Source: Bryoerythrophyllum caledonicum
Taxonomy: Eukaryota > Streptophyta > Bryopsida > Pottiales > Pottiaceae
NCBI GenBank assembly: GCA_963971425.1
Contig: OZ020524.1
Span: forward strand, 6,868,417 to 6,932,416
DNA length: 64,000 bases
Reading direction: 5' to 3'
Part shown: piece after piece, positions 1-29,740 of the stretch
Layout: each line of letters opens with the position of its first letter
How positions within the stretch are numbered: position 1 is the first letter of the stretch
The notes under the pieces: generated by a model
Databases searched by the model: none
What the model was told of the DNA's origin: nothing
What the model saw: the letters and a program-made list of their open reading frames with translations, nothing else
Translations under genes and position numbers: made by a program

Positions 1-724
1 TCTGGATCTCGTTGTTCCCGTTCCCAATGACTATTCCAATATTCATTTCCGATGATCTTCTTAGAATCTTTCTTAGTCGTGAGTGGAACCCACCATTCGA
101 CCTTAAAGTTCCCATAGGAATCCCCAGGAGTGTGGATAACGCACTCCAGTACCCGGCCCATCCACACAAGAAGGTAATCGCTAGTGCAGGGTCGGCAAAG
201 AACAAAATCACCAAGAAGAACATCACAAAACGGATTGAAGGACAATTTCGGACGGTTTATCTCTGGGCCGCAGTAAGGATAAGGGTCAGGTTCATCTTCT
301 GGTGTGACATCCGAGCTCAAATTAATTGCATCGGGCAGTGACGTTGCGCGAGCATGATCACGCATCCAGTCCGATTTTGGCCAGAGTCATTCACGCAGAC
401 AGGCGGGATTAGGAGGGAGAAGACCAAAAATAAGCTGTAAAAGACGCTCCCAATATGCAATGTAAGGTGCCATATCCTCGGCATATCTTTTGTCTCGAGC
501 CATGCTTGTCCTCCAGAACTCAATATACTTTGCAATACCGTTCTTGATAAAGGACTATTTCTCGTTGTTTCTAGTGGCCCTTGCAACCTCCTTCTCCTTG
601 TTACGCTTTGATTTGTTGACATGAACGTCACCGCAAAGCGGCTTCAAGGATACTGGTTTTGGATTACCGATCGGAAGGTTAGGATTCACGAATTTATCCG
701 CCGTCCACATCTTCACAGGCTTAT
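1..724 (-). pseudogene. C-terminal exon of DUF7869-type gene, with BAH-like module
   Basis: Reading leftwards from a clear 3' splice site (pyrimidine tract then CAG at 725-727), one frame stays open to the window edge apart from two isolated stops, a TAG at 555-557 and a TGA at 387-389. The product has a lysine-rich linker, then FNPFCDVLLGDFVLCRP and WMGRVLE, then a tryptophan-rich stretch (VEWWVP, YWNSHWERE). The GDFV...GRV...WW pattern resembles BAH or Tudor-like chromatin-reader folds; this is inference from pattern only. It continues the gene whose core exon is at about 889-2019. The same module recurs at 60822-61382. The gene runs off the left edge, so its end is not seen. The two stops suggest a recent pseudogene. 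Confidence 0.6.
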
Positions 725-888
725 CTGATTGCAAAATACAAAAAAATGAGACAAATACAAGAAAGCGATGAATACGAAGGAAAGAAGGACAAAAGAAGCA
801 CAAAGGTCAAATCTATCGGCTGGCAGCCGACGGATAAGTAACAAGAGAATCGGCCGAAAATGATAGCAAACAGAATATTGACAAAAAA

Positions 889-2019
889 TAAATGAGCCTC
901 ATCCGGTGGGAGCCATGATGAATCCGTTGCACTTCTCTTGTATCTCATGACCGGCCATCCTCCATCTTCACCTTCCTCTTCAACGTAAAATTTAAAAAGG
1001 TGCATCTCACTGAGATCGACAAGCTTATTCTTGTCGTCGTGATGGTAATTAGCAATGTAACTTTTGAAATCAACAACCTCTTGAACAAGTTCAAAAATAA
1101 AGGCTACTGTCTTCTGAGAGTCCATGAAAGATTTCATGAGGTCAGCTAAGCAGTAGGTGTTTTTCCGTTTGATGAATTTTGAAAGGTAACTAAAATGCTC
1201 GTCAATGTCCTTATGAGTGTGGCCGACAATTAAGAATCCCACACTCACTTCCTTAAAAATTCGTCTGGCTGTGAGAAGCGAACAGAAGGCCATGACAAAC
1301 CTGTTTTTGTTATCCTTTGTAGAGTTATCAAGTTGGAGATACAGCTTCCGAGGAAGCTTAACTTCCGGTTGAGCGAGCGAAGCAACTAGGAGGGGATCGC
1401 CCCTAGATTCTGGCATTGACGAACTACATTTGGATTTACCACGGAGTAGAGCTTCAAAGAACGGATTCTGAGGTGGATATGTAAAAATTTGTTTAGACTC
1501 TCGCACAGGGCGGCGCTCTAAAGCCCGAAGAACACAGCAGATAGATGAGATTGTGAAATTGGAGTCCCGAGGCCATAAGGACGTCGAGTAATGTGCATAC
1601 GCACCGTCTCCGTGACCATGAGTAAGCATGCCAGTACATGAAATAGGAATCTGTCCAAGATCCGCGGTCGCCTTCGTAATCCGCTGCATTCTTGGAATGG
1701 CCGTTTTAGAAGTGTCCATCTTGTCGTGAATAATGCAGAGAAACTCATACGGGTAATTAATGGACTGAGATGTCCATCCAGAGTACACATTATGGCAAGC
1801 ACTTTGGTAGTTAAGATGTCTTGCTCGATCATCATACACTGCCTGCCATTCGTCAAACCCGCTAGGATATTTGGCAAGAAATTCAACCAGATAGTCACAC
1901 TCGGTACATCTCGAAAAGTTGCTACCAATAGTCTTTACCTCAACGTTCCGAAAAAACTTCCTTTTCAATCGACTAACAACAAATTGCGAAATCGGCTTGA
2001 CAGAGCATTCAAAGTTCAC
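889..2019 (-). pseudogene. DUF7869 core exon (DDE/RNase H-like fold)
   Basis: The exon starts at 2019, exactly after a splice acceptor (GATTCCAG at 2020-2027 on the minus strand), so no local start codon is needed. It reads openly for about 375 residues to the segment WLPPDEAH. Conserved DUF7869 signatures are LQLDNSTKDNKNRF, ARRIFKEVSVGFLIVGHTHK and DIDEHFS; the spaced Asp/His residues are those of an RNase H-like nuclease fold. This family is repeated in many plants, algae and oomycetes and is widely suspected to be of transposon origin. The open frame beyond about 889 is read-through into the next intron, which holds a copy of the palindrome at 816-830. I could not fix the donor site. Flanking exons carry stops, so the gene is probably dead. 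Confidence 0.65.
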
Positions 2020-2112
2020 CTGGAATCGACAGAGAAAGCAATCAAGACTATTGATGTAGAATTAGAGAGATGCAAAAATAGACAAGCATCGGCTGCCAGC
2101 CAACAGAATGGG

Positions 2113-2673
2113 TTACATGAGCAAGTCACATGTGCAAGTAGGAAGAATGTTGAACCTTACTAGGTTGGACATGTCACGGAGATGATTCCAGTTCATCGCA
2201 ACAGGTAGAACCATCAGAGATGCAACCTTCTTGTTGTCGATGATTCGAAACTCATTTGGCATGTGGTCTGCATTATCGTTGATGATTCTAGAAATGGTCC
2301 CACATGCCTGAACAGTCTGGCAGATTATACAAGTGTCCGCCCAAAGAAGTATCTGATAGCATCGTCTCGAACAACACTTTTTCAAACTAACAAGCTGACA
2401 AACAACTTTGGACTGGAGGCGTCGAAACTTGGTAAGAGAAACAATGCTCTTCTGCTTAAGCTTTCATTTCATACCTCTGTATGGATCCTTGGCCACCCCC
2501 TTGAGCCCATCATCTTTACATGTGGCTTGATTGTGCTCAGAACAGTAGATAAGGCACTCAGACAGTAGTGGACCACTTTCCAGGCGCGTGTGCGGAATCT
2601 TCCAGCGCAGCGTGGTCATCTGAAGATCCTCATGCTCAGAAACAAAGAGTACGCCCACGTCAATGTCACCCAA
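2113..2673 (-). pseudogene. Upstream exon of the DUF7869 gene (Cys-rich N-terminal part)
   Basis: Two ORFs (2464-2673 and 2113-2385) are in one frame separated by a single TGA at about 2464-2466, so they form one segment of about 185 codons. It contains cysteine pairs (CLIYCSEHNQATC; KKCCSRRCYQ; CIICQTVQAC) that may bind zinc. Position and strand make it the exon before the DUF7869 core, with the intron 2020 to about 2112 between them. That intron contains the palindrome at 2089-2103. The assignment to the same gene rests on order, strand and splice signals, not on recognised homology. Confidence 0.45.
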
Positions 2674-2802
2674 TATGTCCGCATCAGATGCCTCCTACGG
2701 AAGGCAAACTTGAATCATCGCCCACCCAACTAATGCAAAGTTATTGTCGAGCAAATGGCAGTTGTTCCTCCATTGTGGTCGATCCGGATACTGAAATTGA
2801 TC

Positions 2803-3786
2803 TTATTTGACCCCTGAAGGAAAGGTTGCTTCAATTGGTGGTTGGTTAGTCGAGCGTCGGCTGCCAACCGACGAAACGACCTCATATCCTTCTCGGCTTG
2901 CTTCGGAGTCGCTGCCTGAACCCCCATCAAATCCCGTGGACACTGGAAAAGTGCTGTCAGCATAGATCTTGTCGCCGCGGTCGTCGTCATCCAAAGCGCC
3001 TAACAACTCACTCACTGGAGATTCATCAGTTGAGGCATATCCAGTGTTGTCACCGACCCGTATGGGGCGAACTCGATAGCCACTCCAGAGAACAAGGTTA
3101 CCCACCGTGTCACCAAGCGTGCTCACCTGAAGGAGTTCGCAGTATGCGGTATGAGTGAGGAACTTGACATTTATTGTCTGGACTCGGACAACCAGAAAGA
3201 AGCTGTGAGGAATTAGGAACCCTTCCCACGATCCCTTTGGTGAGCACTCGTTGATAACTCCTACGCCTGCACAACAGTTTTGACCCATGACATCAACAAG
3301 GAGGGCAACCTCCATGCCGTCACGAAGGTTCAGAAACGACAGAACTGGTTTGATATCCTCAACGGGCTGCAATGTGAATTCTGTTGGATCCTCAGTGAGT
3401 TTGTCGATGACAGCGAATGGCCAAAGGTCAGCCGCCTCCCAATCCATTGACCGACCACAACATTCGCGAAGCATAGTTAAACCATCAGTTGAGAACGGAA
3501 TAGGCATTTCCATCGAATCGGAAACTTCGATCACCTTGACACAAATAATCCATGGATCCGACAGAATGAATTTTTGAACGATTGCGCGACGAGCAAAGTA
3601 GAGGCCCGAGTGAGTTAGGGCGACTTGAACACCTTTACCGGGCTTCCATTGACCTGATTTTCCGTTCTTCATGAATAATAAAATGGGTCCGCAATTTATG
3701 TTCCAGAATGCCAACTTGGCTTTGTCGGCTGGGAGCTGACAAAATTTGTGGATAAAATGGACCAATGGATCACGCATCCAGCTCAA
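2803..3786 (-). CDS. Unrecognised protein, 327-codon ORF
   Basis: This is a long open frame with no family I recognise. It is mixed-charge and globular in the middle, with an acidic, Ser/Gly-rich tail (DDDDRGDKIYAD, GGSGSDSEASREG). It may be the first coding part of the DUF7869 transcription unit or a separate gene just upstream on the same strand. The last 25 or so codons look intronic: they contain a palindrome copy (2856-2872) and are followed by a convincing 3' splice site (CCTTTCCTTCAG at about 2812). A second palindrome copy (3724-3740) lies near the N-terminus, so the first in-frame ATG may not be the true start. Coding status is supported mainly by length. Confidence 0.4.
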   Translation of the reverse strand: MSWMRDPLVHFIHKFCQLPADKAKLAFWNINCGPILLFMKNGKSGQWKPGKGVQVALTHSGLYFARRAIVQKFILSDPWIICVKVIEVSDSMEMPIPFSTDGLTMLRECCGRSMDWEAADLWPFAVIDKLTEDPTEFTLQPVEDIKPVLSFLNLRDGMEVALLVDVMGQNCCAGVGVINECSPKGSWEGFLIPHSFFLVVRVQTINVKFLTHTAYCELLQVSTLGDTVGNLVLWSGYRVRPIRVGDNTGYASTDESPVSELLGALDDDDRGDKIYADSTFPVSTGFDGGSGSDSEASREGYEVVSSVGSRRSTNQPPIEATFPSGVK

Positions 3787-5253
3787 GAATGGCTCACAAA
3801 TAGGATGAAGGCAAATGCATGCGTCAATGAGTCAAAATCGATGCTTTAGGTTTTTGGATTAGGGTTCAAGATTAGGGTTTAGGGTTTAGGGTGAACTTCT
3901 AATGGATTTCAGTGCTTTTGCATGAGACTTGGAAAATCGAGAATCGGAAAGAGCATGTTCGTGATTACATGGAATGCAGAAACAAACTGGGAAGGAGCAT
4001 TTTTGTGCACAGATTCGGTTGCCAGTGTTTAGGGTATCAAGACTTTAGGTATTCAGGTGATCAACGCAGATACAACAGTAAAGTGAAGCAACAAGGTCGA
4101 GTTACACGGAATCAATATACGACTCAAAATCTGGAAAGATATAGGACAATCCAGGGATTGAGCAGATATCTTGCGAGAGTAGTTCAACTTGGGAAATACC
4201 TGGACACCCTAATGGATTTCACACTGATGAAGTACAATTTTACTTGACATGGAATCTGAGGTCTAATCGGATAAAGCATTGAACACAATTGCACCATAAA
4301 TGATCGCCTAGACCATAAATGAACGCCTACTTTCGGAAAGTGCTTGTCAACGTGCAACACGAAGAATGTTGGAATGCTAAAAAGAGCCAGTGCAGAACAG
4401 TGAGATGCGGACGATCTAAGCTGAGACAAAAACTATGCGACAGAAAAGGGTGTGGGGGCAGGTGCATTAAAGAGAAGCAGAAGAGAAATGACAGAGAACT
4501 CGCAGTAGATGCGATGATATCCCTCTCTCAGCTGAACAATGTGCGCGGTAGTCGATTTTGAAATTTCGCGCCAGATTCACCTTTGTGGATTCGCGCCCAG
4601 AAATTCGTGCACGTTCTTCCTTGGACTTCAAATTCAAATTCGAACGGAATCGAATGTGAAACTTCAATACAAAATTCGAAAAGATTTTCCAGAGAATCAA
4701 AAATAAAATAAAAATGACGAGGATGAATGAGTCGAAATTGAAAGCCTAGAATCAGTCAAGATTATGAGCCAAACCAAAAAGCAATTACAAAAAAGAAATA
4801 AATATATAAAAGAGATATTTAAAAAAATCTAAATTAGAATATTAAAAAGAAAGTTACATCAGAACACAAAAATGATAAGTAAATTTGAATATTTAAAAAA
4901 AAATGATTTTAAATTAAATTGAAAATGCCAATTGGAAATCCTGCTGGTTGGATGTAAACTATCAGTCTACCGAGACTATCAGACAATCAAACTACTGTAG
5001 TCTCAGTAGTCTGATTGTCTGATAAACCGGGTCATTTGCAATCTGCTCTTCCTGGTTTAGTTGAGCAGCTTCAGAATTAGGTTGTAAAGTTTTTCCTAGT
5101 TTAGAACTGAATCCGTTCGCGGCCAGCCGATGTAGTGTTTCCGGTAGTTGAAGAAAAGAGTGGAGGAGCACCCAACAGGGAGAACGAGGCGGAGGAGCTC
5201 CAGTGCTAGAGTTTAAGCCACCAACCGACGGGTTTTTTCCAGCAGCCGACAAA
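3787..5253. other. Spacer between divergent genes; no recognised gene
   Basis: It separates the minus-strand DUF7869 gene from the plus-strand gene at 5254. It holds a short tract of plant-type telomeric TTTAGGG units (about 3857-3890), a 111-codon ORF at 3912-4247 that I do not recognise, a very AT-rich stretch (about 4780-4930) and a hairpin (4977-5024). Partial palindrome copies are at about 5117-5131, 5219-5230 and 5240-5250. As the region lies between divergent genes it may contain both promoters, but I see no convincing TATA element. Confidence 0.4.
4977..5024. repeat. Inverted repeat, 20-bp arms, 8-nt loop
   Basis: The arms at 4977-4996 and 5005-5024 (TATCAGACAATCAAACTACT and its complement) match with one mismatch around an 8-nt spacer. 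They would form a strong hairpin in RNA or DNA. It lies about 230 bp upstream of the plus-strand gene. Confidence 0.75.
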
Positions 5254-6847
5254 ATGTCTTCAGTCGATAGGTATGTTTCTCTTTCACTGTCGGCTGCTAG
5301 CCAACGACAAGCTGTATATGTTGTTGATTTTTCCTTTTGTTAATTCCATCGAATGTCATATTGTAAGATATTGTAGCAACTATGCACTTCCGTCAGCTGC
5401 CAGTTGATGGTATTCTTCAGTGTCGGCTACCAGCCAACGGAAATCTCTTGAGTCGGCTGCCAGCGGATGACGTACTACAAAGACGCGGCTCACGAACAAC
5501 GCTCGTTGACTTGTTGCGCAGGTTGAGTAAGCTGAAGTGGTTGTTTGGGCAATGTATTAGTGAGGACGAGGCGGTCTGGCTCGATAATCACGTACCGAAA
5601 GCCACATTTGAGGCTCGTCTTGAATTAACAGAATGGGGCATTACTTGGAGGCTGGGGGAGGTGACTGAAATGTGAATTAACGGGAAGCACATGGGCAAGA
5701 GTTTTCTTAGTGGAAACCTGGTCGCCGTGATGGATATTATGGGAGATCCTGAGGACGACGACTGCATTCGACTCTTACTGAAGGTGAAGGTTCGAGTGGC
5801 CGACGAAGACCCGGAGTCTTATGCTGTAAGAATCCGTTGGGCCCTCTCCTCACAAGAGCTATGCACGTCGGCACAGGAGGTGGGCATGCAATTTACAGAG
5901 GTGTACCCAAAGAGCCGCGCAGAATTGGTGGACTGCTTTATGGAGGCAAAGGACTAGAGAGTGGAGCTCAATGGCGGAACTGATGGGCGTGGCAAACGTA
6001 AAGCTACAAAGAAGCCAAGGGCCTCCAAAAAGGCTAGCAGTTCAGCATTGACTGTTGTTGCTGGAGCACCTGATACGGAGGTGTCGCCACCGAAGGCTCC
6101 AAAGAAGCGGGCATCTAAGAAGACTGCAAAGGTGAAGACAGTGGCCGAAGCACTGGTATGTCTGAACAACCTCTCATCCAGTACCAATTGGCAATAGTTA
6201 AGGAGGTCGAGGAGATGTACAACACGATCGAGAAAGGATTGGGGCGTTGTTATCCATTTGGGCAGCAGGTTCTGCTAGATAAGATTCACTCGTCTATGAT
6301 CCACCTTGCGCCCCATGGAATGGTTTACCGTGAACTCGTCAAAAGGAGCCTCGACCAACTCTGGGTCATCTACAGAGCCGTTGGTCCTTGGCGGGCAACG
6401 GTACTGCCACTATACTGCGTTCCTCTGCGTGCTCCACCAAGTTCTGCTCAAGATGGCAATGAGTTAAAGGATATGGAACTTCTTCGCAAAAGCATGCCCA
6501 AAATGATGGAGGACCAAGTTCATTTTGCCGGTCAGACCTACAGGTGGTATGACAAACCAAATTGTCATTAGTTCATCATTGGTGGGCAGCACACATACTT
6601 TGTGTGTAAGGAGCTCGGGGAGATGGAGGACCCCCAATCTTCGAGAGCAAAGTATTTCATGGAGTGGGAGATAATCGTACTCTGGTCGAATACTTAAGAC
6701 GACCTGGTGAAAATTTCAAACCTCCTGAACGTTGATGTTACTGAGAAGAAAACGGAAGAGACCTATGTTCCTCAGCTTCGAAGAATGAGAGAGAGGTAGG
6801 TTGAGCTCAGTCGCGTTGACGAGCTTCAAGACCATGTTGCCTGGAAG
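5254..6847 (+). pseudogene. 5' part of a decayed multi-exon gene, function unknown
   Basis: A possible tiny first exon (ATG at 5254, donor GTATGT at 5271) is followed by an intron with four palindrome copies (5289, 5391, 5421, 5451). Coding-like frames follow: 5490-5675, then 5691-6197, a frame broken by one TAG at 5955 with a Lys/Ala-rich linker (KRKATKKPRASKKAS), then 6158-6847 in another frame with three stops (6569-6571, in the 6690s and near 6797). The last exon ends HVAWK at a phase-0 donor (GGTATTTT, 6848). The many stops and the frame change say pseudogene. I recognise no domain; the basic linker would suit a nuclear protein. Confidence 0.45.
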
Positions 6848-6976
6848 GTATTTTTATTGCTCAATTGCTCGTTCATGCTATTCGTGTAGTATTGCTTAAG
6901 TGTTTCTGACCGTCGGCTGCCAGCCAACGGCTTGACATCCCTTGGAACTTGACTGTATTCATTGTGATTGTTGCAG
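6848..6976 (+). other. Intron with one palindrome copy
   Basis: The donor is at 6848 (GTATTT) and the acceptor ends TTGTTGCAG at 6976. It is 129 nt and phase 0 on both sides, and both flanking exons are open in the matching frame. The palindrome copy sits at 6910-6930, about 45 nt before the acceptor. This is the cleanest case of the palindrome being intronic. Confidence 0.7.
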
Positions 6977-8211
6977 GAATTTTGTAAGAATCACCTCACT
7001 GTAATTATGAGTAAGGCTAAAGACGTGGAGATCCAAAAGCTACCCCTTGTTTTCGTTCCTGATGACCTCTACAACAAATGGCATGTGGTTTTCACTGCCG
7101 AGCAGATGGGTCAATTAATTGGGGAGAACGGACAACCTCCTCTCCAGATTCCTTGAATTTCGTAGCGGGACATCACGCACACGGACCTTTCGTACCTCGT
7201 CAACCTGCGTGACAAGGACTCCATGAAGCCGGGTGAGGCGATTCTGGATAAGGTGTATACTAAGGTCAACGCAGGAAAGGAGAAAGAGGTTGTTGGTGTG
7301 TCGATGAAGTTGTGGGTTAAGGATGTGAAGATGAACTACATCATCAAGAACGAATTGATGCTGAAGTACCGTGATTATCCACTGAAGAAGCCTGGAGAGT
7401 CCGCTTATGTTCCGTGGGCGTATGAGCAGTTTACGTTGCTTGCAGTTGAGAAGGATATCAACGATGAAACCTTTGATAACATCCGACGCGAGTTGGAAAC
7501 TTGGAGCAGTCTGATGCCGGCACAACATTCTTGAAGGGGAGGAACAACGGCATTACTCCAACAACTAATGAGGCCCCGCCCGAGTTTTGGTCAGCCGTGA
7601 AGAAGTACGCCGTTCTTTGTGATGAGGATCTGGTTGATGAGTTCGCCATTTGCTTTGATGTTCGTGTTGCGAAGGGGCTTGCCGAATTGGTGAAGAAAAT
7701 TGATGACAAAGGAGACGTGCAACTCGAGAAGGAAGCTCGCGAGATGTTCGTTGTGTTTGGATTTGACGAAGCTAGGGAATCAATCTTTATTGGTAGAGAC
7801 GGGCTCAAAGCAGTTGTGTAGAGGGTGCTGCGAGTGAGTGATGATGATCAGTGTGAGATTTTTGCTCCTACAGTTCTCCTAACTGACGACAACTCCAGTT
7901 TCCAAATTGAGTCGGAATGTCGCAGTTCGATTGGGGTATGTGCTGTCCACACAATTCGCTACCTCCCTGACAGTAGCCGGAAGTTCAAGATGTTGGCCAT
8001 GCACGACAGAACTTTGGCTAACGTTGGAATCCTCTACAACAAGCCGAGCGATGAGCGTGAAAGATTCAGCCAGTTCAAGAAGGTGACAGGATTGACGAAG
8101 CCTCTTAATCCTCTCTATAACAATGTTGCTTCGCCCTTGACCGAGAGCTCGTGTGGAGATGTGTGCAATCCTTGCATGGGTTTGCTCACGGCAATTTTGG
8201 TCCCACCTTAG
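6977..8211 (+). pseudogene. 3' part of the same decayed gene, function unknown
   Basis: It starts directly after the acceptor at 6976 with EFCKNHLTVIMSKAKD. The frame is open to a stop at 7154-7156, resumes (7223-7534), shifts near 7520 and continues (7535-7821 and 7825-8211), with one TAG at 7819-7821. The segments are mostly charged and globular (WHVVFTAEQMGQLIG, KKLWVKDVKMNYI-like stretches, SRKFKMLAMHDRTLANVGILY). The family is not recognised. About 90 bp further on, a hAT-like element is inserted. Coding may resume beyond it at 11330, so the element probably sits in an intron of this gene or between two genes. Confidence 0.45.
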
Positions 8212-8301
8212 TGGTGAAGGAATCAAACCTGGCCGTCTTCAATGCCTGGGGTGATGGGGTTGTTAGAGCTTTGGCCTTGGTTGGTTTCCTTACCCCTTGT
8301 C

Positions 8302-8309
8302 GTGCTTGC
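8302..8309. repeat. Target-site duplication, left (GTGCTTGC)
   Basis: It is identical to 11247-11254 on the other side of the hAT-like element. Eight bp is the length hAT transposases produce. Confidence 0.8.
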
Positions 8310-8504
8310 CAGGGTTGTCTACATAGACGGACAGGGGCCCAAAGACAGCGGACGGACGGACAGTAGGACGGACGGACAGGACGGACATCACTTTTTGGCG
8401 GACAGTTGCGTATAAAAAAATTACAAACCCTAAATCTAATTTTCAACTTACCCCCTAGTAAAACACGTGTGCACGACACGTCAGACGGCATTCCACGTCA
8501 CATC

Positions 8505-8614
8505 AAGGGGCGGACGCGTGCCTTCGGACCACGCGCGCAGCATTTGGGGCCGGGCGCGTACCAATCTGGACCGGGCGCGTTCATGTAGGGCCGGGCGCGT
8601 TCCAATTAGGGCCG
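8505..8614 (-). repeat. Left subterminal GC-rich array of the hAT-like element
   Basis: There are repeats of GGGCCGGGCGCGT spaced about 21-22 bp. They are the reverse complement of the right-arm motif ACGCGCCCGGCCC. The array is cut by the assembly gap, so its length is unknown. Confidence 0.7.
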
Positions 8615-8814
8615 NNNNNNNNNNNNNNNNNNNNNNNNNNNNNNNNNNNNNNNNNNNNNNNNNNNNNNNNNNNNNNNNNNNNNNNNNNNNNNNNNNNNNN
8701 NNNNNNNNNNNNNNNNNNNNNNNNNNNNNNNNNNNNNNNNNNNNNNNNNNNNNNNNNNNNNNNNNNNNNNNNNNNNNNNNNNNNNNNNNNNNNNNNNNNN
8801 NNNNNNNNNNNNNN
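8615..8814. other. Assembly gap of exactly 200 N
   Basis: The round number suggests a placeholder rather than a measured length. It lies at the inner edge of the left GC-rich array, so a repeat collapse is likely. The kinase N-terminus and possibly other element genes are hidden here. Confidence 0.95.
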
Positions 8815-8816
8815 TG

Positions 8817-10400
8817 GCCACTGATCGTAATACTGGGAAGCGGCCCGCGTATGTTGATTTAGATGCTCCAGATGCATCGGAGCTTCCACCTACTAGCGTT
8901 GCGGAGTCGAGCCGCAATCCTTCCGATGCACCGAAGGCACCGTCGAAGAGGGCGAAGCAAAAAATGTCTGCGCACGAGAAGGATGCCGGTTATCCACCAA
9001 AGGAGTATACCGCATTTCTTCGAGGTGTGGCAATACAATACTACCGTCGATGGTGTGAAACTGACGTGGTGCGATTCCGTCAAGTTTATTTGGAGAAGGG
9101 AGAGCCAGGAATCATGTGCTTACAGGCCGACCTCCAGTTGAAATTCGAGCGCGCTCTGGAGAGTTCTGAATCGTTCAAGGATGCATATGGCATGTATCAC
9201 TATGCCTCATTCATGGAGAGAGTAATCACTCAATGTACGAGTAATGCATCGCATATATTTGATTGTGAGGTGAAAAAACCTCGCGGGGGCCAGCATCAGC
9301 CACGAGACTTGGAACTCCGCAAGTTCCTCGAAGGTGTGAAGACCACCATCGGCAGGTTTTCAAGCTCTCTTACGAGAGGTATGCCTTGGAATGAACAAGC
9401 GATGAAGTCAGCCATGGAGGCGCATATGTTGCACAGAGTGCAATTTCTTCCAGAAGATATCGGAGTTTATGGACTTTCCGGATATGACGCCGTTGGTGGA
9501 TACGGAAAGGTTCGGAAGGTCCGCATCGTGGGTGTGCTTGCCATTTCGGCATACATGGAGTTTGCCGGGAAAATGCCAACGGCGTCTCATCCGAAGGAGA
9601 AATTTAGACAACGGTCTCACGAGGCCATGATATGTCATGTTGCACACCCAGGAGTTATAAAGTTTTGGGCTGTGAATACAAAGAATATGGAGGCGTACAC
9701 ATTGTGGTGGAATGGTGGTAGTTGGGCCCATTTTAAAACCGTCGATTCAAAGGCAAATCCGGCGGCTTCGAGCAACTCAATCCTTTCAGCTCCATATATT
9801 TTGGCGGAGGATACAACACAAATCTTAGCCTTCCGGAAGAATAGAGCAAGACTTGCCTGGGCTTTGATGTGCACCATGGCCCAAGTCCACAAGGCAAATG
9901 TCATTCACAATGACATCACTCCCACAAACGTGCTTCTCCACTTTCCTCCAGAGAAACCAGGATCCGTCTTTATAGGCGTTTGTGATTGGGGAATTGCGAG
10001 CCGAGTATCATATGAAGAGCCATCAAAATATGGATTTCGGACAGACACGGAGCTGGACAATCAACGCCGTAGACGACATTGGGTAGCTCCAGAGTTGTTT
10101 TACAAATTCGGCCCACAAGATTCGGAAACGGCATTGGATGTGATGCAGCGGCGTCACCAATACACATAGCTCGCCGATTCGTACTCCGTTGGGTGGATGG
10201 CTAGAGCGATTTGGGAGAAAGAATCTGACTCAACATTCTTCAAATCAACCGTCAACTACGCAGCTTTTCAAGTGAAGATCGAGAAATTACTGCAGCGAGA
10301 TCCCCTCAAACGTCCAACACTCTGCAAAGTGGTTGACGAGCTAATGGCTAAACCATTCAACTTTGAAGTTCCGGATGCTTGCTTCCGCTATGAGATATAG
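8817..10400 (+). pseudogene. Divergent protein kinase-like gene inside the hAT-like element
   Basis: The frame is open from the N gap to 10400 except for one TAG at 10167-10169. The first ATG in view is at 8964, but coding continues upstream, so the true start is probably in the gap. Counting from that ATG, a helical N-terminal region of about 170 residues precedes the kinase domain. Its parts are the Gly-rich loop GGYGKV (about 179-183), a candidate ATP-binding Lys at about 203, catalytic loop HNDITPTNVLL (HND in place of HRD, Lys replaced by Thr, Asn kept), DWG in place of DFG (341-343) and an APE motif (WVAPELF). The last 75 codons after the TAG complete the C-lobe. The Asp, Asn and probable Lys remain, so the parent could be active. 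It is probably a captured host gene, now broken by a single nonsense codon. Confidence 0.7.
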
Positions 10401-10559
10401 ATATTTTGACTTAGCGTATTGATAGTGAAGGTTTCAATTGTTGAACATTTTGCAATACGTACTAGCATTGTGATATAACGGTGATTTTTGCCCATCTCGT
10501 GATATATATAAGATTAATATTTTTCATACACATTGCGATATGAAGCTCATGCATGTTAA

Positions 10560-11095
10560 GAAGTGAGAGAGCGCGCGCGACCCCTAAATTCAATACCCAT
10601 ACGCGCGCGACCCCAAAGGCCACGCGCCAGGCCCAGCCCCCTCCACGAACGCGCCCAGTCCTCCCCCACGAACGCGCGCAGCCCCTCTACGAACGCGCGC
10701 GACCTTGGCAGGTCGCGCCAGCCCCTCCAAGTATGCACCCGGCCCTTCACCGCGCGCGCCCGGACACTTGCGTTACGCGCCCAGCCCCTCACAGTACGCG
10801 CCCGGTCCACCCCTGTACGCGCCCGGCCCAACACGGTACGCGCCCGGTCCTCTCCTGTATGCGCCCGGCCCCTTCTGTGCGCGCCCAGCCCCTCACAGTA
10901 CGCGCTCGGTCCACCCCTGTACGCGCCTGGCCCAACACGGTACGTGCCCGGTCCTCTCCTGTATGCGCCCGGCCCCTTCAGTGCGCGCCCAGCCCATCTC
11001 CGCACGCGCCCGACCCTTTCAGTATGCGCCCGGCCCATCTCCGTACGCGCCCGACCCCTTCACGCGCCCGCCTCCTAGCCGCACGCACGCGACCA
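10560..11095 (+). repeat. Right subterminal GC-rich array of the hAT-like element
   Basis: The basic unit is about 21 bp with core ACGCGCCCGGCCC, and a higher-order period of about 104 bp can be followed (10781 against 10885). The 21-bp unit equals seven codons, so three plus frames and one minus frame stay open for 145-182 codons; these ORFs are by-products of the repeat. The array is the inverted counterpart of 8505-8614. Such subterminal arrays in hAT elements are normally transposase-binding sites. Confidence 0.75.
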
Positions 11096-11246
11096 TGTTG
11101 ACGACGTGTCAACCACGTATTCGCCTTCGTGGCAGTGGGTAAATTGATTTACCTCGAGTCATGGTCAAACTAGGGTTGACCCTTATCGGACGGACAACAG
11201 CCTCTATCGGACGGACATTTGGACGGACGGACGGCCGAACAACCCT

Positions 11247-11254
11247 GGTGCTTG
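11247..11254. repeat. Target-site duplication, right (GTGCTTGC)
   Basis: It is identical to 8302-8309. Removing 8310-11254 gives the predicted empty site. Confidence 0.8.
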
Positions 11255-11329
11255 CTGTTGTTTTTAGTCCTACTTTTACCGATTCTTGTCATTGCATCTC
11301 GTTGGCTGGCAGCCAACAGTTTTTTGCAG

Positions 11330-12250
11330 CGAACTACTGACTTAGCTTATCGTATTTGTGCTCTGCGGGCAAAAGCAACTATGATTGAGTTTGTGCGCGA
11401 GGAAGCTGACGTTGCTATCGCGAAGGAGCGCGTAAAGAACATGTAATTTCTTCCGCAGTCGCCTAGTGTACCTAATCGAATCACGTGGCCTCATCAGTTT
11501 GGTTCATCATTTGGGGCTACTCAGCTTGGAGATAATTTAGCGCCGCCCCCGGAGGTCGTGGAACGCGATGATTTTGCTCGTGCTGCTTTGGAGGTAGTGG
11601 AAGACTTTGTGGTCCATTCCACCCAACCATCCAGTTCACGGAATGCGTTGGTAGTGTTTGATTTATCGGACGACGAGATGTCGGATCGTGATATCGGGTT
11701 GAATGATGACAAGGCTAGTCTGGACCATCCGATTACCCCGATTGGCAAAGGACATCAGTCTACTGTGCCAGATGTGTTGCCTACAGTAGTGGAAGAAGCA
11801 ATGCATGCTGGTTCTGTGGTCATCAATATGGCCGAGCAACCCCAAGTTGAAATAGTCGTCTGGGCTGTGTGCACATATGTGGCACGTCCTAAGGCAAAGA
11901 CCGTCCATCCTCTTAATCTCGCGATGGACCCTGCTGCTCGGAGACCGATTACTCCCGATTTTGGCGTCGTCCAGCCGGGACCTCAAAAAGAAGTTCCCGT
12001 GATTTCTACAGGTACTGACGTCCCTCATGGAAGCCCTAAAGCAAAGAGGTCGAAGATAAGCAGCAAAACTTTTGGATTGAAGCGGCCGAAGTCTCCCTTG
12101 GCAAAGATGAAGGGTTCCATTGCAAAGCGCGGTGCAAGAAGCAATTCTTCTTCAAGACTAGGCACGCTAATGACCCCCAATGGCGAAGATCTCCCCAACG
12201 AGCCCCTGTCTCCTCACGTAGATCGCGCAGGCAATCCATCCGGAGTTTAG
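11330..12250 (+). CDS. Coding-like exon, low-complexity protein
   Basis: It follows a strong 3' splice site (TTTTTTGCAG, ends 11329), with a palindrome copy at 11300-11319 just before it. The frame reads an alpha-helical charged start (RAKATMIEFVREEADVAIAKER), meets one TAA at 11444-11446, then stays open to 12250. The second part is Ser/Pro-rich with acidic and basic patches (LSDDEMSDRD, PKAKRSKISSK, KRPKSPLAKMKGS), as in disordered nuclear proteins. It could be the 3' end of the gene interrupted at 8.2 kb or the start of the FCP1-like gene that follows. No family is recognised. Confidence 0.4.
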
Positions 12251-12443
12251 TTTGTTAGTTAACTTACTGTTGGTTCAGAATTTAGTGACCTAGCATGCAA
12301 CTAATTTTTTGAAATATTTATAAACCCTTTATGATTCTGTGCTCAAGTGCATTGCTATTTCTATGTTTGATTTTATGAATTATTCTCTGACCTTGTCTTA
12401 TCTTTCGGGTTGGTCCGTCGGCTGGCAACCGACCTAGGATCTA

Positions 12444-13388
12444 ATGTCCTATAAATGGTCTTTCTTTAAATCAGCTGATCAGGGGACTAGTACTTCTGTA
12501 TTTGCTGCTTCTGGTGCTGTGGAGCAGGTTGCTGCTAATCTAGAATCCGAAGCGTTTGAGCACATGATTCAGGTGGGTTTGACACCCCTCAAAGATTACT
12601 TCCTTGTACTTGAATTCAATGGTTTGGTTCTCACACATGGCACTGACCGTGTTACAAAGTTCCGGCCTCACACCCAAGAATTTCTCAAGTATTGTGTTGA
12701 TAATTTTACTATCGTGATTTGGAGTTCTAAAAGTCCGGCTAGAGTGGGGACTCTTCTTAACGACCTGCAAAATTAGTTCGAATACATTCTTCACAGAATC
12801 AAATATGACATCTTCGATAATATCCATTGAGATGTAGCTTGGTATATTGTCGATGGCAAGAAATTCTACCTTAAGAGGCTATCAATGCTATTTTTTAGTT
12901 ATGGGGAATTGATAGGAAAAGGAGCCAATAGAGCCAACACCCTCTTGATTGGCGTTCATCCGTACTCGAACGTCAAGAATTCTCCATATAATGCCATATA
13001 TCCAATGCCCTACACTCTCACTTCAACTGAGACTGCCGACGAGAATTTGGAAGCTCTCTCGGTAATAACTACCTTTCTGAGTGCGATGAAGGAATTGGGT
13101 TGGACCGTTCCCGAATACACCTCAACAATGGACCACCTTATCATGGTGAAGAAGTTCGCCAAGCCCTTTCGGAGTGACAAGCCTCGTCGTCCTCGTCCTG
13201 AAGTTGCGAATCCGGAATTGAATGATGAGCTCTCAGCCAGCGTGGATACGGTCGTGCCTGATGTTGTTGTTGTCGCTACTCTGCTTCTCGGCCATAGGAT
13301 GACCTTCCTTGAACCTAAGCCTGTCGACCCTTGGAAGACTGTGCTAGTAGCCGACCCAGGAACCCTCGATTGCTTCCAGGACAACTAG
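12444..13388 (+). pseudogene. FCP1/SCP-like HAD pseudophosphatase, copy 1
   Basis: It is one frame with two internal stops (TAG at 12774-12776 and a TGA near 12828). FCP1-family HAD motifs are present in order: the beta-1 strand YFLVLEFNGLVL (where active enzymes have LDLDGTL), VIWSSKSP (motif II region), and NTLLIGVHPYSNVKNSPYNAIYPMPY (in place of the LLVDDSP...PxNAI motif). Both nucleophile-loop aspartates are changed (to Glu and Asn) and the motif III/IV Asp pair is Gly-Val. The fold is probably kept but phosphatase activity should be lost. A basic Pro-rich tail follows (DKPRRPRPE). It is the first of four related domains in a row. Confidence 0.6.
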
Positions 13389-13716
13389 AGTGGGAGCAGT
13401 TTGTTTGGTGCTTTCCAAGCAAGAAGCATCCAAGGTCACTTCCAAGTAGATGTTAGGTCAATCCGTCGGCTGCCAGCCGACGCTGCAATTGATTCCATTT
13501 CTTTTCGTGACTTTTGTCATGATTATGGAAATATATTTTTGAGTTCGCACAGTGATATTATCTTTGTGTGAATGTTTACCCATAATAAACATCGCTTGTA
13601 ATTATCTCAACTTCCTATGCACTTGATGGTTTCTTAATTCATGCATCGTCATCCATTCATTTCTCTACGTTAACTCTGAAGTTGGCGATGCAAGTGAGTG
13701 GTCTTTATCGCTCCGC

Positions 13717-14382
13717 ACCGGTCCATCTGAGAAGGTCAATAAGTACTTCCTTGTCCTATCTTTGAACGGTCTCTTGATGGCTCAAGGTGTTGGAGCCGAC
13801 AGGAAATGGCATACCATCTTCCGGCCGATGCTGAAAGAGTTTCTTGAGTTCTGTGTTTCCAACTTCACTATGGCAGTTTGGAGTGACCAATCCAGCTCTT
13901 TTCTGAAATTACAAATGATAGCTCTTGAAGGACAGTGTGGCATTGTTAGACAAACTAGACATCGTTTCCACAAGAGTTTCTGCGACACAGCAACGACATC
14001 GTTCAATGGTCGGACTCTTTATATCCGCAGGCTTTCTACCCTGTTTTTGCATCCGTCCGGCCTGTTAGGCACAGGAGCAAATAGCCTAAACACTCTTCTT
14101 CTCGACTGCTGTCGTTTTGCTAATGTCCGGAACAATCCCCTCAATGTCATGCATCCACTGATGTTCGATCTGACTTCAAAGGAGACCGTGAAGAATGTCG
14201 TTCTTTGTGGTGTCGTTCAGTTCCTTTCCGATTTGCTTTCAACGGGATTGTCTGTTCCTGAGTATGTTTGTGAGAACATAGATTTGACCGGATATCCTCG
14301 TCTTTGGACCGATGACGCAAAGTGGGCAGAATACGTCAAAGCTTACCCCAGCTCGATGCGTCTCAACATTTCTTCCTCATAG
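13717..14382 (+). CDS. FCP1/SCP-like HAD pseudophosphatase, copy 2
   Basis: The open frame extends upstream of the first obvious start to include KYFLVLSLNGLLM, the counterpart of the catalytic LDLDGTL strand with Ser and Asn in place of both Asp. AVWSDQSS matches motif II and NTLLLDCCRFANVRNNPLNVMHP matches the C-terminal Asp motif, keeping one Asp. There are about 220 codons without a stop, so this is the best-preserved copy. The spacers on both sides (13463-13482 and 14391-14409) hold palindrome copies, so it may be one exon of a larger gene spanning the whole array. Confidence 0.55.
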   Translation, partial: TGPSEKVNKYFLVLSLNGLLMAQGVGADRKWHTIFRPMLKEFLEFCVSNFTMAVWSDQSSSFLKLQMIALEGQCGIVRQTRHRFHKSFCDTATTSFNGRTLYIRRLSTLFLHPSGLLGTGANSLNTLLLDCCRFANVRNNPLNVMHPLMFDLTSKETVKNVVLCGVVQFLSDLLSTGLSVPEYVCENIDLTGYPRLWTDDAKWAEYVKAYPSSMRLNISSS

Positions 14383-14550
14383 GATAGCAACGTTGGCTGG
14401 CAGGCAACGCCCTTGAATGTTCATTTTGTCAGACCTTTATTGACTTGTTGTATTACAATTTTCTTGGTAATAAAGCTCTTTCGTTTTTTGAACAATCATT
14501 TGTGATTGGTGCCTCACTGAATCCATGCATGTCTGCTTTATTGACTTTAG

Positions 14551-15586
14551 ATGCAAAATTCATTCCTTGAAGTCGGAAATTTCGCACCAACTTGCCGTCG
14601 TGACTGATCCGGGAGACATTGACTTGACGGACATCTCCCCGCGCTTCAGCGGCTTCCAGTCACTATTGGGAGATTACGAGAGACTGGAGCATCAAGACAT
14701 CCCTGGTGCCTTTTGCGGTCGTGGATATCATGTCGATTATGGCCAATGCTCACTTGAGCGTGGCGGGGAGCGTGCAGTTGTATTCAAACCTGCTGTTGTA
14801 GTTGAGATCGTGTCACTAATGCATTATGGGAATGTCGTTGTCGTTTCCGGCTCCACCCGCTGTCACATCGAGGAGGTAGACATCGACGATTTTGTTTCGG
14901 ATGGTGCTTGTCCTATCTCTGTCAATGTCGTCGGCTCCCAGCCGACACCTTTTTCTACTTCAGTTCACGCTGCCGAGCTCAGCTCCGATGTGGTTCCTAG
15001 GAACATTCAGGTGGGTCCTTCAAGCTACTACCTCGTCCTTGAAATAAGGGGGCTTCTTCTCGCCAGAAGTTTTGTTTGTCGTGGCAATGCTAAGAGGAAG
15101 AGCTTTCATCATAAATCTAGGCCTGGGCTTCAAGAGTTCCTTGCTTTGTGCCAGTCGTCCTTTTCGTTGGCCTTTTGGTCAACCGATAAGTCTAGAGATA
15201 TCCATCGACACATGGATCACTTGTTCGATGTTTTCCCCAACTTGCGAAAGGACACAAAAGTGTTGGGCACTACCTACTGTGATTCCTTCGCGGCCAAGAA
15301 TCCCACGACTTTAGTTGCGCCGTTGCTGAAGAGGTTGGCCTGTTTGTTTTCTGATAGGTGCTATTTGATCGGGCCTGATGCAAATGAGCGGAACATGCTT
15401 CTCGTTGATCCCTTTCCTCTCCAAAATATCCTCAATAGCCTCTATAATAATGTTTATCGTTCTCTATTTAAATATAATATTCCAGAGATCTCAGTGCCTG
15501 GTGTCGTGAAGGAAATCACTAGATGTTATAACAGGATTAAAAAAAGAGGGGAAAGAGAATGGTTAGGGCCGAAGGTGAAGACATGA
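14551..15586 (+). CDS. FCP1/SCP-like HAD pseudophosphatase, copy 3
   Basis: The frame opens after a plausible acceptor (GACTTTAG at 14550) and ends at 15584-15586. The first part (about 120 codons) is unrecognised. A stretch ending CTTTTTCTACTTCAG at 14963, preceded by a palindrome copy at 14928-14946, looks like an in-frame intron end. The HAD part then reads YYLVLEIRGLLL (both catalytic Asp lost), LAFWSTDKSRDIH (motif II) and NMLLVDPFPLQNILNSLYNNVY (one Asp kept). It ends in a basic tail. It is a likely pseudophosphatase like its neighbours. Confidence 0.55.
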
Positions 15587-15684
15587 CTAGCGGATTCATC
15601 CTCAATTACGCAGTCATACTTCACCAAATAGCATCTTTATCTTAGAGGGTCTTTTACTGCCTCTTGTCACTAGCTCAGGGCTTA

Positions 15685-15845
15685 GGAGCGTCCACCAGCT
15701 CGTTTTCCTGCTGATTCCAGCAGTCCCCTGACCACGCGTGCGCCAGCCGCTCTGACAACCCAAGGAATCGAACCCGGACCGGCGACGTGCAACGAAATGC
15801 TCAGCCAGCCGAATTGAGCCGCGGTCGATGACAGTACGTGGGCTC
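15685..15845 (-). repeat. tRNA-derived SINE-like sequence
   Basis: On the minus strand a perfect pol III B box (GGTTCGATTCC within GGTCCGGGTTCGATTCC, 15759-15775) lies about 35 nt after an A-box-like TGGCTGAGCAT. No full cloverleaf can be drawn, so a SINE or a tRNA relic fits better than a tRNA gene. Confidence 0.4.
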
Positions 15846-17660
15846 TAATGGTATTTAAGCCATTTTCTAACGCTTCTAAGATCAAAAAACCTAAACAGAG
15901 TGTTATAGTAGTTTAGTTTGTAGTAAAAGTAAGAAATGCTAGTGTTTAGAGTCAAGTTAGAGGGAAGAAAATAGGGGCAGCTACTTGTTGGCATTGTAGA
16001 TAAGAGATAAGAGGGAATCTAGGCTTATGTGGGAAGTTATGGACAAGAATTGGAGGTAAATTGACTTAGGTGACCAAATTTTGGTCAAAGAAGGAGGCTT
16101 GAAGGCGTGGGCTGATGTTTATTCTTGACTTTCTTGCCCTTCTCCCCCGCTTGAGCTCTTCTCCCAAGACTACAAATAGCCTCAGGTTTCTGCTTGTTTC
16201 ATCGCGAGTTTTTGGAATTTTATTGTCAGTTTTTAGAGTGTTGTTCTTCTTGTTGTTAGCTTTCCAGTGATGTATCACACGCTCTAATCGGAGTTGTAGT
16301 GAAGCCGTGGTGCGGATTTGAATAAAGAGGGGTTTAGAAATTGAGGCAGTAATGTATAAATACTTTGAAGGAGTGGTGTTCCGCGATCATTGTGAGTTTG
16401 ATAGTGAGATTTTGAGGGTAGTATTAAAATTGTCTTAGGAAGCTTGTATCAAAATCTTAGATCCATTAGGACTATAATCTAAAAGTTATGAGGTAAATTG
16501 TAACCGGGGTTTTGAGAGGGATTCAAGGGCAGAACTTGGTGTAAGGAAACTACGCTTTGGGAGATTATTGATAGAGTATTTAGGATTGATTTTTTGTGGA
16601 AGTGTTCTTTGTTGTATGAGTGACTTATGTACAAATTTTGAGATCTTTGTCTGTAATAGAATAGGAGTGATAAAGAGTTGAAGTAGGGGGGGACCTGATA
16701 TTAGAGGCAGAGGAGTTTGAGGCCATGGATCTTATTGAGAATTGATCCAGTAATAGTGAAAATTGGTACATACCTTCTTAACAAGATTATAAAGGTTGTG
16801 TCAAAATCCTAGAGTCATTGGATATGTAGATAGAAAGTTATGTGAAAATTAGTGGTGGGATTTTTAGGGGCAGCGTTTGAAGATAGGAACTCCTAGATTA
16901 AAAATGTTATGGAGATAGACTAGAAGCAAAAGAAAGGCATAATAGCCATTTTTTATGTTTTTTGAAGCCATACATACAAGATAAGTCTTGCACTTAACTA
17001 CCTAAATGAAAAAAAAAGACCCTGTGTTTCCTAAAACAAAGTTTCTCAACACGACACCGGGATGCAACCGTATCTCTTGAGTGCGTTAATTCCCTCTCTC
17101 TTGGGACTTTTGAAGTCTGGAGTCAATGTTTAGGAGTATTGCTCTTCAAATTGGAAATTCGGAACTTCTCGAGTGTACCCTGGGTCGTTTCAACATCAAA
17201 AGTACAGGAAGGTCATCTTTCCCCACGCCTTGGGTTTCGACGCGCCATACTGTCCCGATGAAGTGGTATCCAAGCTTTTAATTGCCTACTCGAACTGAGT
17301 ATCCATTTTTTCTCCAATGGGCTTTTCCGAGTTTCTTTTCCTCTTTACTGCTATTGACAATCAGAAACTGATCCTATATTACCTTGTAATTTCTTAATTT
17401 TTGCGATCTTAAGATATGTTTTCTCATTCCAGTTTTCCTGTGTGCATGTATTTGTCTGTGCTTCATCTCTTATGATGGTCCTGTGCGTTGTTATGCATAG
17501 CCGATGGTATAGTGTTTTCATCCGTCCTTAATATTCGACATCATGACGATTGTCTTATTTTTTATTTTCCAAGGGTCATCCTTTTATTTCAAATGCTTAT
17601 ATGGAACCCCTTCACCGTATTGAAACTGTGTTGTCTTCTATGTCAATGGGCTCCTTTGCT
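15846..17660. other. AT-rich spacer within the FCP1-like array
   Basis: I see no coding sequence. The open frames at 16066-16278 (-) and 17488-17688 (+) are short and resemble nothing I know. Confidence 0.4.
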
Positions 17661-17674
17661 TTGTAAAACCACGT

Positions 17675-18250
17675 GTGCCAACTTCTAGTTCTTGCACTCG
17701 TGAGAATATAGTTCGCCGGCCGGGCCTGAAAAAGCTTTTTGATATGTTGTTCCCGTGCTTTAACGTCGCGTTTTGGTCAACGTTGCCGATGGAGGAGTTA
17801 CAACTAGTCTTGCGGCATATTCTTCCGGTTGGTGTTATGGATAGGCTGTCATTTGTCTATAGCAGACATGAATTAGCGCACAGCATGAATTTCCCTTGGA
17901 GTTACAAAACGATGTCTATTCTTTCTAAGAAGAATTCTACGCATTCTGTCTGCCTGCCTCATCAAGTTCTATTCGTGGATGTGAACCCAAGGTCTCTCCG
18001 AAAAAACCCCGACAACATTTGTTATATTCCCTGGTTGTTTAAGGGTCATTTGAGCCTTCGAGACGATGATCAAGTTATTCCTAACGTGGCGACCGACATC
18101 CTTCCCTTCATTCATCCGCTCCACAGATTTTCAAGCATCGGTGAATATTTGAAGCAAGCACATCGACCTGGTCAGTCTCATTGGGCGGGTTCAAAGGCGC
18201 GTGAGTATGGGCGCACAATTGTCCGATGGGACGAAATCGAATGGTATTAG
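17675..18250 (+). pseudogene. FCP1/SCP-like HAD domain, copy 4 (N-terminal part missing)
   Basis: It contains RPGLKKLFDMLF, VAFWSTLPMEEL (motif II region) and VLFVDVNPRSLRKNPDNICYIPWLF (C-terminal Asp motif, one Asp kept), then a basic Trp-rich tail. The strand that would carry the nucleophile Asp is absent from the ORF, and I could not find it in any frame just upstream, so this copy is truncated or has an unseen upstream exon. Two palindrome copies (18261 and 18469) follow. Confidence 0.5.
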
Positions 18251-18724
18251 GTGTTCTTCTTTGGCTGCCAGCCGATGGTCTTCAAATTAGTTTTTGTCCG
18301 TGATTTGAAGGATGCATTTTGTAAAGTTCATGAAAGTGAACATTTGTGTTGTGTAATTTGATTTAGAGTGTTCATGTACGTGTCATTAGTTTCCGATCAA
18401 CTTTATTCCGGGATGGTTTTCTTCTAGGCAGTTGTATTTATTAGTTCTCGAGATCTCAACTTTTTGATTGGCTGCCAGCCAACAGTGTAATTTGTTTTGA
18501 TCAATAAACGTCTCTTTTTTGCAACTGGTATTTCTTTTTTTTGAACATCGAGTTTGTCCATTGAGTTTTTCTTGCTTTATTACTTTGGCCTCTACTGCTT
18601 GCCGACTGTATTTTTTTCTCAATGACTTGTTTGTGACTCGTTTTCATTTGTGGACTTTGTTTTGTCCTTATTTAGTTAAATATCCGTTTTAAGTGCAAAA
18701 AAGACACAAACCCCAAACCGCTTA

Positions 18725-28147: not shown

Positions 28148-29740
28148 AGTGACAAAATCGATCAAACATTGGGTAATCACAACTTCAATTGTCATTAATT
28201 GCAAATTGACATGTGGCATGCTTTAGTTCAAAAGCTAATCATATTCTATTTCAAGCTGAGATTCTTTAAGTTGGTACAGATGGAAATGCATTTGTGTGGA
28301 TAGATGGATGATTGCTTGTCATCTCTCTCATTTGATCACTTTTGACAACCCATAAAATGCAAACACTTATGAATTGATGTGCACAAATTTGTGAGAGATC
28401 TTCCACTCGCACTTGTAGAACTTTGATTTCTCTCCTCTAATACTTGTGTGCACAGTTATTGCTACTGTATAGACCTTCTTCTTTAGTGTTTCAAGATGCC
28501 CAAAGCATTATCTCGACAAATTCAAGTTAACGTAGTTTCGATGCTCTGGAGAGGATATTTACACAAGGAGATAGAAAATACTTTGCATGTGAGTGTGGGA
28601 AGTGTCCATAATCTTTGTCAGGTGCATGTTTCCAATGTAGACCGCTTGCATGGAGGTAGACCTCAAAAGTTGAATAGAGAACATGAACAAAGGTGTGTTT
28701 TAGAAATGGTGAGGGGAAGAACGGATACTTGCGCAAATGTAGCAAGGTTTGTGCAAAAAGTATTGAAAATGAGAGTGAGCTCTCATACAATCAAGCATGC
28801 ACTTCATAGAGCTGGTTTACGTTCCCTAACAAAGGTAAAAAAACCACATCTTTCTTCCAAAAATGTGAAGGCACATTTAGAGTTTGCCAGAGTCCACGAA
28901 CACTAGACCGTAGAGGATTGTAGCCAAGTGATCTTCTCAGACGAGAGTAAAATCATCTGCTTCAATTCAAACGGAAGGGTTTGGTATTGGACACGAGAAA
29001 CAATGCCGCTTTTGGTACGAACTATAAATCAAACAGTAAAATATGGAGGTAGGGGGATTGTAGTTTGGAGGTATATGTGCATGCATGGACCTGGATTGAT
29101 ATGCAAAGTAGAGGGGTGCATTAATCAAATTTGTTATTGTGACATTCTAGGGAAAATGTCTACAGGGTAATTTCCAAGTTCGACTTAGATCCTTTTTGTG
29201 TCATGTTCCAATAAAACAATGCTCACATGCACACAACGAAGATGCTTCAAGAATGGTTCTCACAACAACCTTTTACTCTTCTACCTTCGCCTACTCAATT
29301 GCCTGATTTGAATCCCATCGAACACAATTGGTCAATTCTCAAACAGAGATTGAATCAATATGAAAGACCTACAACTAGATTAATAGAATTGTGGGATTGT
29401 GTGGTAGAAGTTTTCCACTCTACTACTCTAGATGATTGTAGGAGGCTTGTAGAAAGTATGCCACATAGAATTACAATTGTGAAAGGAGCAAAAGGGAGGT
29501 GGACAAAGTATTGAGAAATCATCTTTCATGGGTTGGCAAAACTGATCAAATGCCTAGTGGACTTTGGGTTTTTCTCAGTCTTTCTACAACTCTAATTTAA
29601 AGGCGTTTTTCCTCTAACATGTACTATATATTGCATAATATGTTTATAAAATTACCAATTTCAATTTCATGTGTTTTTTTTTGTCCAGAATGGAATAGAT
29701 GAAGTGTTTGCAAATGTTTGATCGGTTTTGACAGTCACTT
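28148..29740 (+). mobile_element. Tc1/mariner (DD34E) transposon, complete ends
   Basis: It is flanked by TA (28146-28147 and 29741-29742). The left end reads AGTGAC then AAAATCGATCAAACATT; the complement of the right end reads AAGTGACTGTC then AAAACCGATCAAACATT. The left copy lacks four bases (TGTC). It encloses one transposase gene and is inserted in the gypsy element between RNase H and integrase. Confidence 0.8.
28496..29514 (+). pseudogene. Tc1-family transposase, broken
   Basis: The N-terminal helix-turn-helix part (RQIQVNVVSMLWRGYLHKEI, then GGRPQKLNREHEQR) and the linker HTIKHALHRAGLRS are present. The first catalytic Asp is in VIFSDESK and the last acid in LPDLNPIEHNW. The second Asp site reads FQ-stop-NN: the Gln codon is TAA and the Asp is Asn (about 29208-29220). 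There are 34 residues between the second and third sites, as in DD34E families. A TAG at 28904-28906 splits the ORF, and the frame changes between 29170 and 29227. It is inactive. Confidence 0.8.

Follow-up and report, generated by a model that had tools for sequence, protein, structure and literature searches.

Palindromes in the non-coding gaps of a DUF7869-bearing moss DNA transposon as putative element-wide protein-binding sites

To our knowledge, few transposons carry a recognition code across the whole of their non-coding DNA, VANDAL being the known case. In Arabidopsis, VANC21 binds a short motif, often in tandem, that VANDAL21 carries in its introns, intergenic DNA and terminal non-coding DNA (PMC5735166), and VANC proteins are reported to remove methylation (PMC5735166, PMC10398659). 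Here we analyzed a 64,000-nucleotide stretch of the moss Bryoerythrophyllum caledonicum (contig OZ020524.1, positions 6,868,417 to 6,932,416; hereafter the window), which holds much of a decayed DNA transposon with a DUF7869 gene and, within it, many copies of a palindromic motif of 15–19 letters. The likeness to VANDAL lies in a multi-gene DNA transposon with a short motif in introns, intergenic DNA and terminal non-coding DNA, in a local array of variable copy number (here at 5393-5467), and in a motif that differs between related families. Unlike the VANDAL motif, that of the moss element is a palindrome of 15–19 bp that mostly occurs once in each gap. The moss transposon further differs in its 4-bp target duplications and in having yielded a DUF7869 domain in place of a Mutator transposase, with nothing recognized as a VANC protein. 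We argue that the palindrome was inherited as a DNA motif spread over the whole element and its miniature derivatives, and that it is most likely the binding site of a dimeric protein encoded by the element.

Searching the window for TCGGCTGNCAGCCGA with up to three mismatches returned 18 matches, compared with 0.82 expected and a maximum of four in 100 shuffles. Seventeen lie within 816-18482, in agreement with the first-pass annotation, which had counted at least 16 palindromes in about 18 kb; its further statement that the next 45 kb held none is correct for strong copies, the remaining match, at 22753, being a weak one with three mismatches. The copy at 5116, also weak with three mismatches, was excluded from most counts, leaving 16. 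The full 19-mer is present in the best copy (13466). Among the 42 changes away from the 19-mer in the window, 34 are C>T or G>A, and by manual tally 34 sit on its eight CpG positions. Copies in which both arms had changed (TTGG/CCAA) do exist, as reported earlier, but their frequency is that of chance (three copies change both, P = 0.19), and with C>T and G>A at CpG positions making up most of the changes, paired ones need no compensatory selection. Compensatory change in the arms was accordingly rejected.

None of the 16 palindromes falls in annotated coding sequence, which makes up 64% of the stretch without its later insert, a figure that is partly circular because splice sites near palindromes helped to set exon limits. 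The intronic placement proposed earlier holds where it is best checkable, in the two DUF7869 introns 2020-2160 and 725-932, which carry one copy each; the first of these had been drawn too short, as 2020-2112. For the intron from 5271 to about 5480 and for 6849-6976 the placement is by inspection only. The one ending at 11329 is likely and is interrupted by a later 2.9-kb insertion, and a likely intron at 14904-14963, before NIF_C, matches the one described as ending at 14963. Other copies had been said to follow open reading frames (ORFs) directly; those at 13466, 14393 and 18261 each lie downstream of a stop codon.

The 18-kb stretch had been taken for one gene cluster; it is instead part of a single decayed copy of a DNA transposon. 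Its inverted ends begin AACGGATATTTAAC and extend over ~28 bp in several copies, and BLASTN similarity stops at the inverted repeat AACGGATATTTAACTAAATATGGACAAA on both ends. With the repeat taken to begin two bases ahead of CGG, a limit chosen after inspecting the flanks, 4-bp target duplications are exact in nine of ten complete copies (three large and six small), the tenth being the window copy. They are AT-rich (CAAT, TTAA, ATAC, ATTT, ATGT, TATC, AAAT, AATT and AATA). The three large complete copies measure 16,401 to 16,744 bp and the window copy 21,142 bp, of which excess a hAT-like insert accounts for 2.9 kb. Five further groups of palindromes on one contig of the assembly, C1, have identical gene content and order: one strand carries DUF7869 and minE0, and the opposite one P1, NIF_A, NIF_B, Cn, NIF_C and NIF_D. 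Amino-acid identity to other copies is 55–88% in corresponding tblastn pieces. A search of the 437-Mb genome with the DUF7869 exon gave at least 111 matches on many contigs, two of them probably from one copy and many without an internal stop. Inverted ends, a duplication of fixed length and many dispersed copies identify the element as a terminal inverted repeat (TIR) DNA transposon. In its AT-rich 4-bp duplications and short inverted ends, and by these features alone, it resembles Sola2 (PMC3627910, PMC9033089); Sola1 is listed for Physcomitrella. Contig C1, which makes up 65 of the 437 Mb, holds 61 of the 111 DUF7869 matches listed, and may be repeat-rich or a sex chromosome.

The exact palindrome occurs 768 times in the genome, and a reversed-pattern control not once. 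The genome scan allowing paired changes, which the first-pass annotation had proposed, gave 768 symmetrical copies with T at position 6 and 516 with G, compared with a total of 13 when position 6 is A or C and position 10 is G or T. An even spread over the genome, which that annotation held would count against it, was checked in part: the 50 distinct places listed of the 768 all belong to large copies, to miniatures or to related families, clustered inside the element group. Six miniatures of 328–334 bp have the same ends as the large element and carry one palindrome near either end, in opposite orientation and ~200 nt apart. The binding sites of En/Spm TnpA and Ac are subterminal transposase-binding repeats. 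The motif resembles them in lying near both ends of the miniatures, and differs in that the bulk of the copies lie inside the element, within introns and downstream of genes. In the literature, the papers listed as matches contained only a 9-mer of the motif and none of its longer strings, and no such element appeared among the titles listed on giant transposons and mosses.

In up to six element copies compared, the palindromes are mostly at corresponding places, with ~20 internal sites per element. The 30-nt array in the first P1 intron has three units in the window copy and in the copy L128, and one unit in the other four. At the ten best DUF7869 loci (L159-L168; L159 is the window copy itself, and L165 had been included before), the upstream site is present in ten of ten and the downstream site in nine of ten with at most two mismatches. 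The motif is thus part of the transposon, lying in the gaps between coding parts and subterminally, and kept in place at the sites compared; it was inherited with the element and not inserted site by site.

Related families spell the palindrome differently. Its sequence is TCGGC(G/T)G-N-C(C/A)GCCGA in families B (L146, L147) and C (L143, L144). We matched 14 pairs of sites between family A and families B or C by their neighboring genes. At position 6 all 14 A copies have T and 13 of 14 B/C copies have G, and at position 10 all 14 A copies have A and nine of 14 B/C copies have C; outside positions 6, 8 and 10, 155 of 168 motif letters are identical, while the flanks average 61% identity compared with 57% for random pairs. 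The half-site has changed in concert between families. Within families B and C, by contrast with what a stem would favor, the halves vary independently: no covariation is seen between positions 6 and 10, with 17 of 35 copies matched where 19.2 were expected (9 of 17 in B, 9.8 expected; 8 of 18 in C, 9.4 expected). All 16 window copies have a C:G pair at the center, in mixed orientation, and the central letter is C or G in 83 of 88 fetched motifs of family A, 15 of 17 of B and 14 of 18 of C. Half-sites that vary independently around a center that is mostly C:G point to a dimeric protein that reads the motif as double-stranded DNA.

These observations bear on the two readings that treat the palindrome as something other than a DNA site. 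That it is an RNA hairpin acting in splicing, termination or polyadenylation, like the 3' hairpin of Mimivirus, is very improbable, even though the 19-mer folds into an 8-bp stem with a 3-nt loop (-12.3 kcal/mol) and copies stand in introns and past stop codons. Besides the free orientation of its center in the window and the missing covariation at positions 6 and 10, the ends of the ~330-bp miniatures also carry the motif. Mimivirus polyadenylation hairpins likewise follow genes but act in RNA and are not conserved in sequence (PMC4402537), whereas the moss palindromes are, and several are intronic. An endogenous giant virus with 3' hairpins was also considered, and dropped once introns and transposon structure had emerged; two ORFs had no confirmed relative in IMG/VR, in a search that reaches close relatives only, and scanning IMG/VR for the palindrome gave hits that, on a rough estimate, resemble chance matches, with at most five near-copies each among at least 120 loci. 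The first-pass suggestion of introner-like introns, or of a palindromic mobile micro-element inserted many times into the cluster, is extremely improbable. It would explain the unrelated flanks, the many intronic copies and the varying number of 30-nt units between element copies, yet the sites are orthologous in up to six copies and across families, and the motif also lies outside introns. The introns, some of whose limits are approximate, share one nine-mer outside the palindrome, fewer than random segments from the rest of the window (average 14.5). Direct repeats flanking the palindrome, looked for there and not at intron edges, are inconsistent and short (0–5 nt; mean 2.1 compared with 1.3 at random places). 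The short palindromes in introns and intergenic DNA of Volvox organelles are similar in placement; they are organellar, with inert nuclear copies, differ in structure and appear selfish themselves (PMC2670323).

Two further readings keep the palindrome as a DNA site. It is quite unlikely that a host transcription factor, insulator or silencing factor binds it: one would expect such a factor to have other target places too, and the 50 exact copies examined are all inside the element group; moreover, the half-site differs in concert between element families, a pattern that arises more readily when the reader moves with the element. This reading draws on the CpG-type changes that dominate the window copies, as in methylated DNA, and on GCCGAC inside the palindrome, which we take to match the core of the plant dehydration-responsive element (DRE). 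A recombination, replication or transposase-loading site of the element without a silencing role is also unlikely. Many exons are bordered by palindromes, and in the miniatures one lies close to either end, where subterminal transposase sites would be expected, but ~20 internal sites are unnecessary for loading a transposase and gene order is conserved between copies. A site for an element-encoded protein is in our view probable, and of the earlier proposals, binding sites specific to these gene families fit best, with the correction that the unit is a multi-copy transposon and not a host gene cluster. Several points weigh against it. No Pfam DNA-binding domain reached the cut-off in the element pieces scanned, which gave only sub-threshold helix-turn-helix hints. 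The 14 cross-family pairs were selected because both members hold the motif, and one pairing is ambiguous (L147:5833 or 5954). Among close copies, non-CpG differences amount to 8.1% in the motif and 9.6% in the flanks, being lower at 13 of 18 sites, whereas a cruder count gives 8.2% and 7.8%, a value as low being reached by 687 of 1000 shifted site sets. Selection on the motif within family A is therefore unsupported, the motif being hardly better kept than its flanks, as fits neutral decay of dead copies.

The element genes are placed, with the palindromes, in Table 1. Among the element pieces scanned, only DUF7869 and NIF match Pfam at curated cut-offs, with no Mutator-type (MURA) transposase, and the reading frames of the window copy are broken. 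Three blocks with Asp occur in DUF7869; four of five aligned rows retain the first two, and the third varies in two rows. The predicted structure of its exon (pLDDT 34.7 alone, 37.5 with five sequences) was too poor for a fold search, and a literature search for 'DUF7869' found no paper. A second DUF7869 lineage of ~38% identity (L143:1-2262, a 754-aa open frame, and L146:7850-8845) lies near but apparently outside palindrome elements, with no adjacent palindrome in the fetched stretches. Each element has four diverged NIF/FCP1-like phosphatase genes (window 12438-18250), whose first catalytic aspartate motif seems, by eye, to be lost (e.g. LVLSLNGLL), so that the proteins may be pseudo-enzymes.

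Table 1 Features of the transposon copy in the window
Feature	Position	Strand	Remarks
Right-hand part of transposon copy	1..18688		start ~2.45 kb left of window (L139:7547)
ORF with Pfam DUF7869 (E 3.9e-44)	721..2061	minus	exon ~933-2019
Palindrome	816..830		DUF7869 intron 725-932, donor where Pfam match ends
Palindrome	2089..2103		DUF7869 intron 2020-2160 (GT-AG, 141 nt)
Palindrome	2857..2871		likely intron of minus-strand gene, by inspection
minE0, upstream coding part	2887..3672	minus	no Pfam match
Palindrome	3725..3739		near 5' side of minus-strand gene, by inspection
Weak palindrome	5116..5130		divergent 5' region
Palindrome	5290..5304		likely first P1 intron
Three palindromes (5393, 5423, 5453)	5393..5467		exact 30-nt spacing, likely first P1 intron
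Gene P1	5481..8211	plus	in-frame stops; pieces scanned without Pfam match at cut-off
Palindrome	6913..6927		likely P1 intron 6849-6976
Later hAT-like insert, not part of element	8310..11247		ends CAGGGTTGT, 8-bp duplication GTGCTTGC
Palindrome	11302..11316		likely P1 intron ending 11329, split by hAT-like insert
P1 continuation past insert	11447..12250	plus	
Palindrome	12418..12432		before NIF_A, possibly intron 12218-12474
NIF_A, NLI-interacting-factor-like phosphatase fragment	12438..13388	plus	two ORFs
Palindrome, full 19-mer, best copy	13466..13480		after NIF_A stop
NIF_B	13627..14382	plus	Pfam scan
Palindrome	14393..14407		~10 nt past NIF_B stop
NIF_C with leading domain	14492..15586	plus	leading domain a weak sub-cut-off Pfam match
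Palindrome	14931..14945		likely intron 14904-14963, before NIF_C
NIF_D	17624..18250	plus	Pfam scan
Palindrome	18261..18275		after NIF_D stop
Palindrome	18468..18482		~205 nt from right end of element
Right terminal inverted repeat	18661..18688	minus	inward reading AACGGATATTTAACTAAATAAGGACAAA
Right target duplication TTAA	18689..18692		left copy TCAA, one mismatch

The hAT-like insert, which interrupted a palindrome-bearing intron, carries a protein-kinase gene next to GC-rich tandem repeats of ~21 nt; the kinase had no match in the other stretches searched. Elsewhere in the window are a fragment with a Tc3-type transposase domain in an apparently decayed long terminal repeat (LTR) element (28487-28906), a 1211-aa open frame with a reverse transcriptase of the long interspersed nuclear element (LINE) type (43503-47138), and a perfect AT-rich palindrome of 41 nt, unrelated to the motif (60057-60097).

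With the binding-site reading, an element-encoded dimeric protein would read the palindrome as double-stranded DNA, recognizing its two half-sites TCGGC(T/G)G together. If so, the protein of family A should prefer TCGGCTG, and those of B and C should accept TCGGCGG. More speculatively, the reader protein might mark the whole element, and this marking could either shield the element from host silencing, in the way that VANC protects VANDAL elements, or bring the transposase to the element ends. We put forward only tentatively, as a possibility that we do not favor, that the DUF7869 group has a second, independently evolved sequence-specific anti-silencing system, in which the element tags its own gaps, the half-site switches with the subfamily split and protection extends no further than the subfamily's own copies. 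A lineage besides VANDAL whose code is longer and palindromic, and comes in at least two dialects, would make it possible to ask how code and reader change together.

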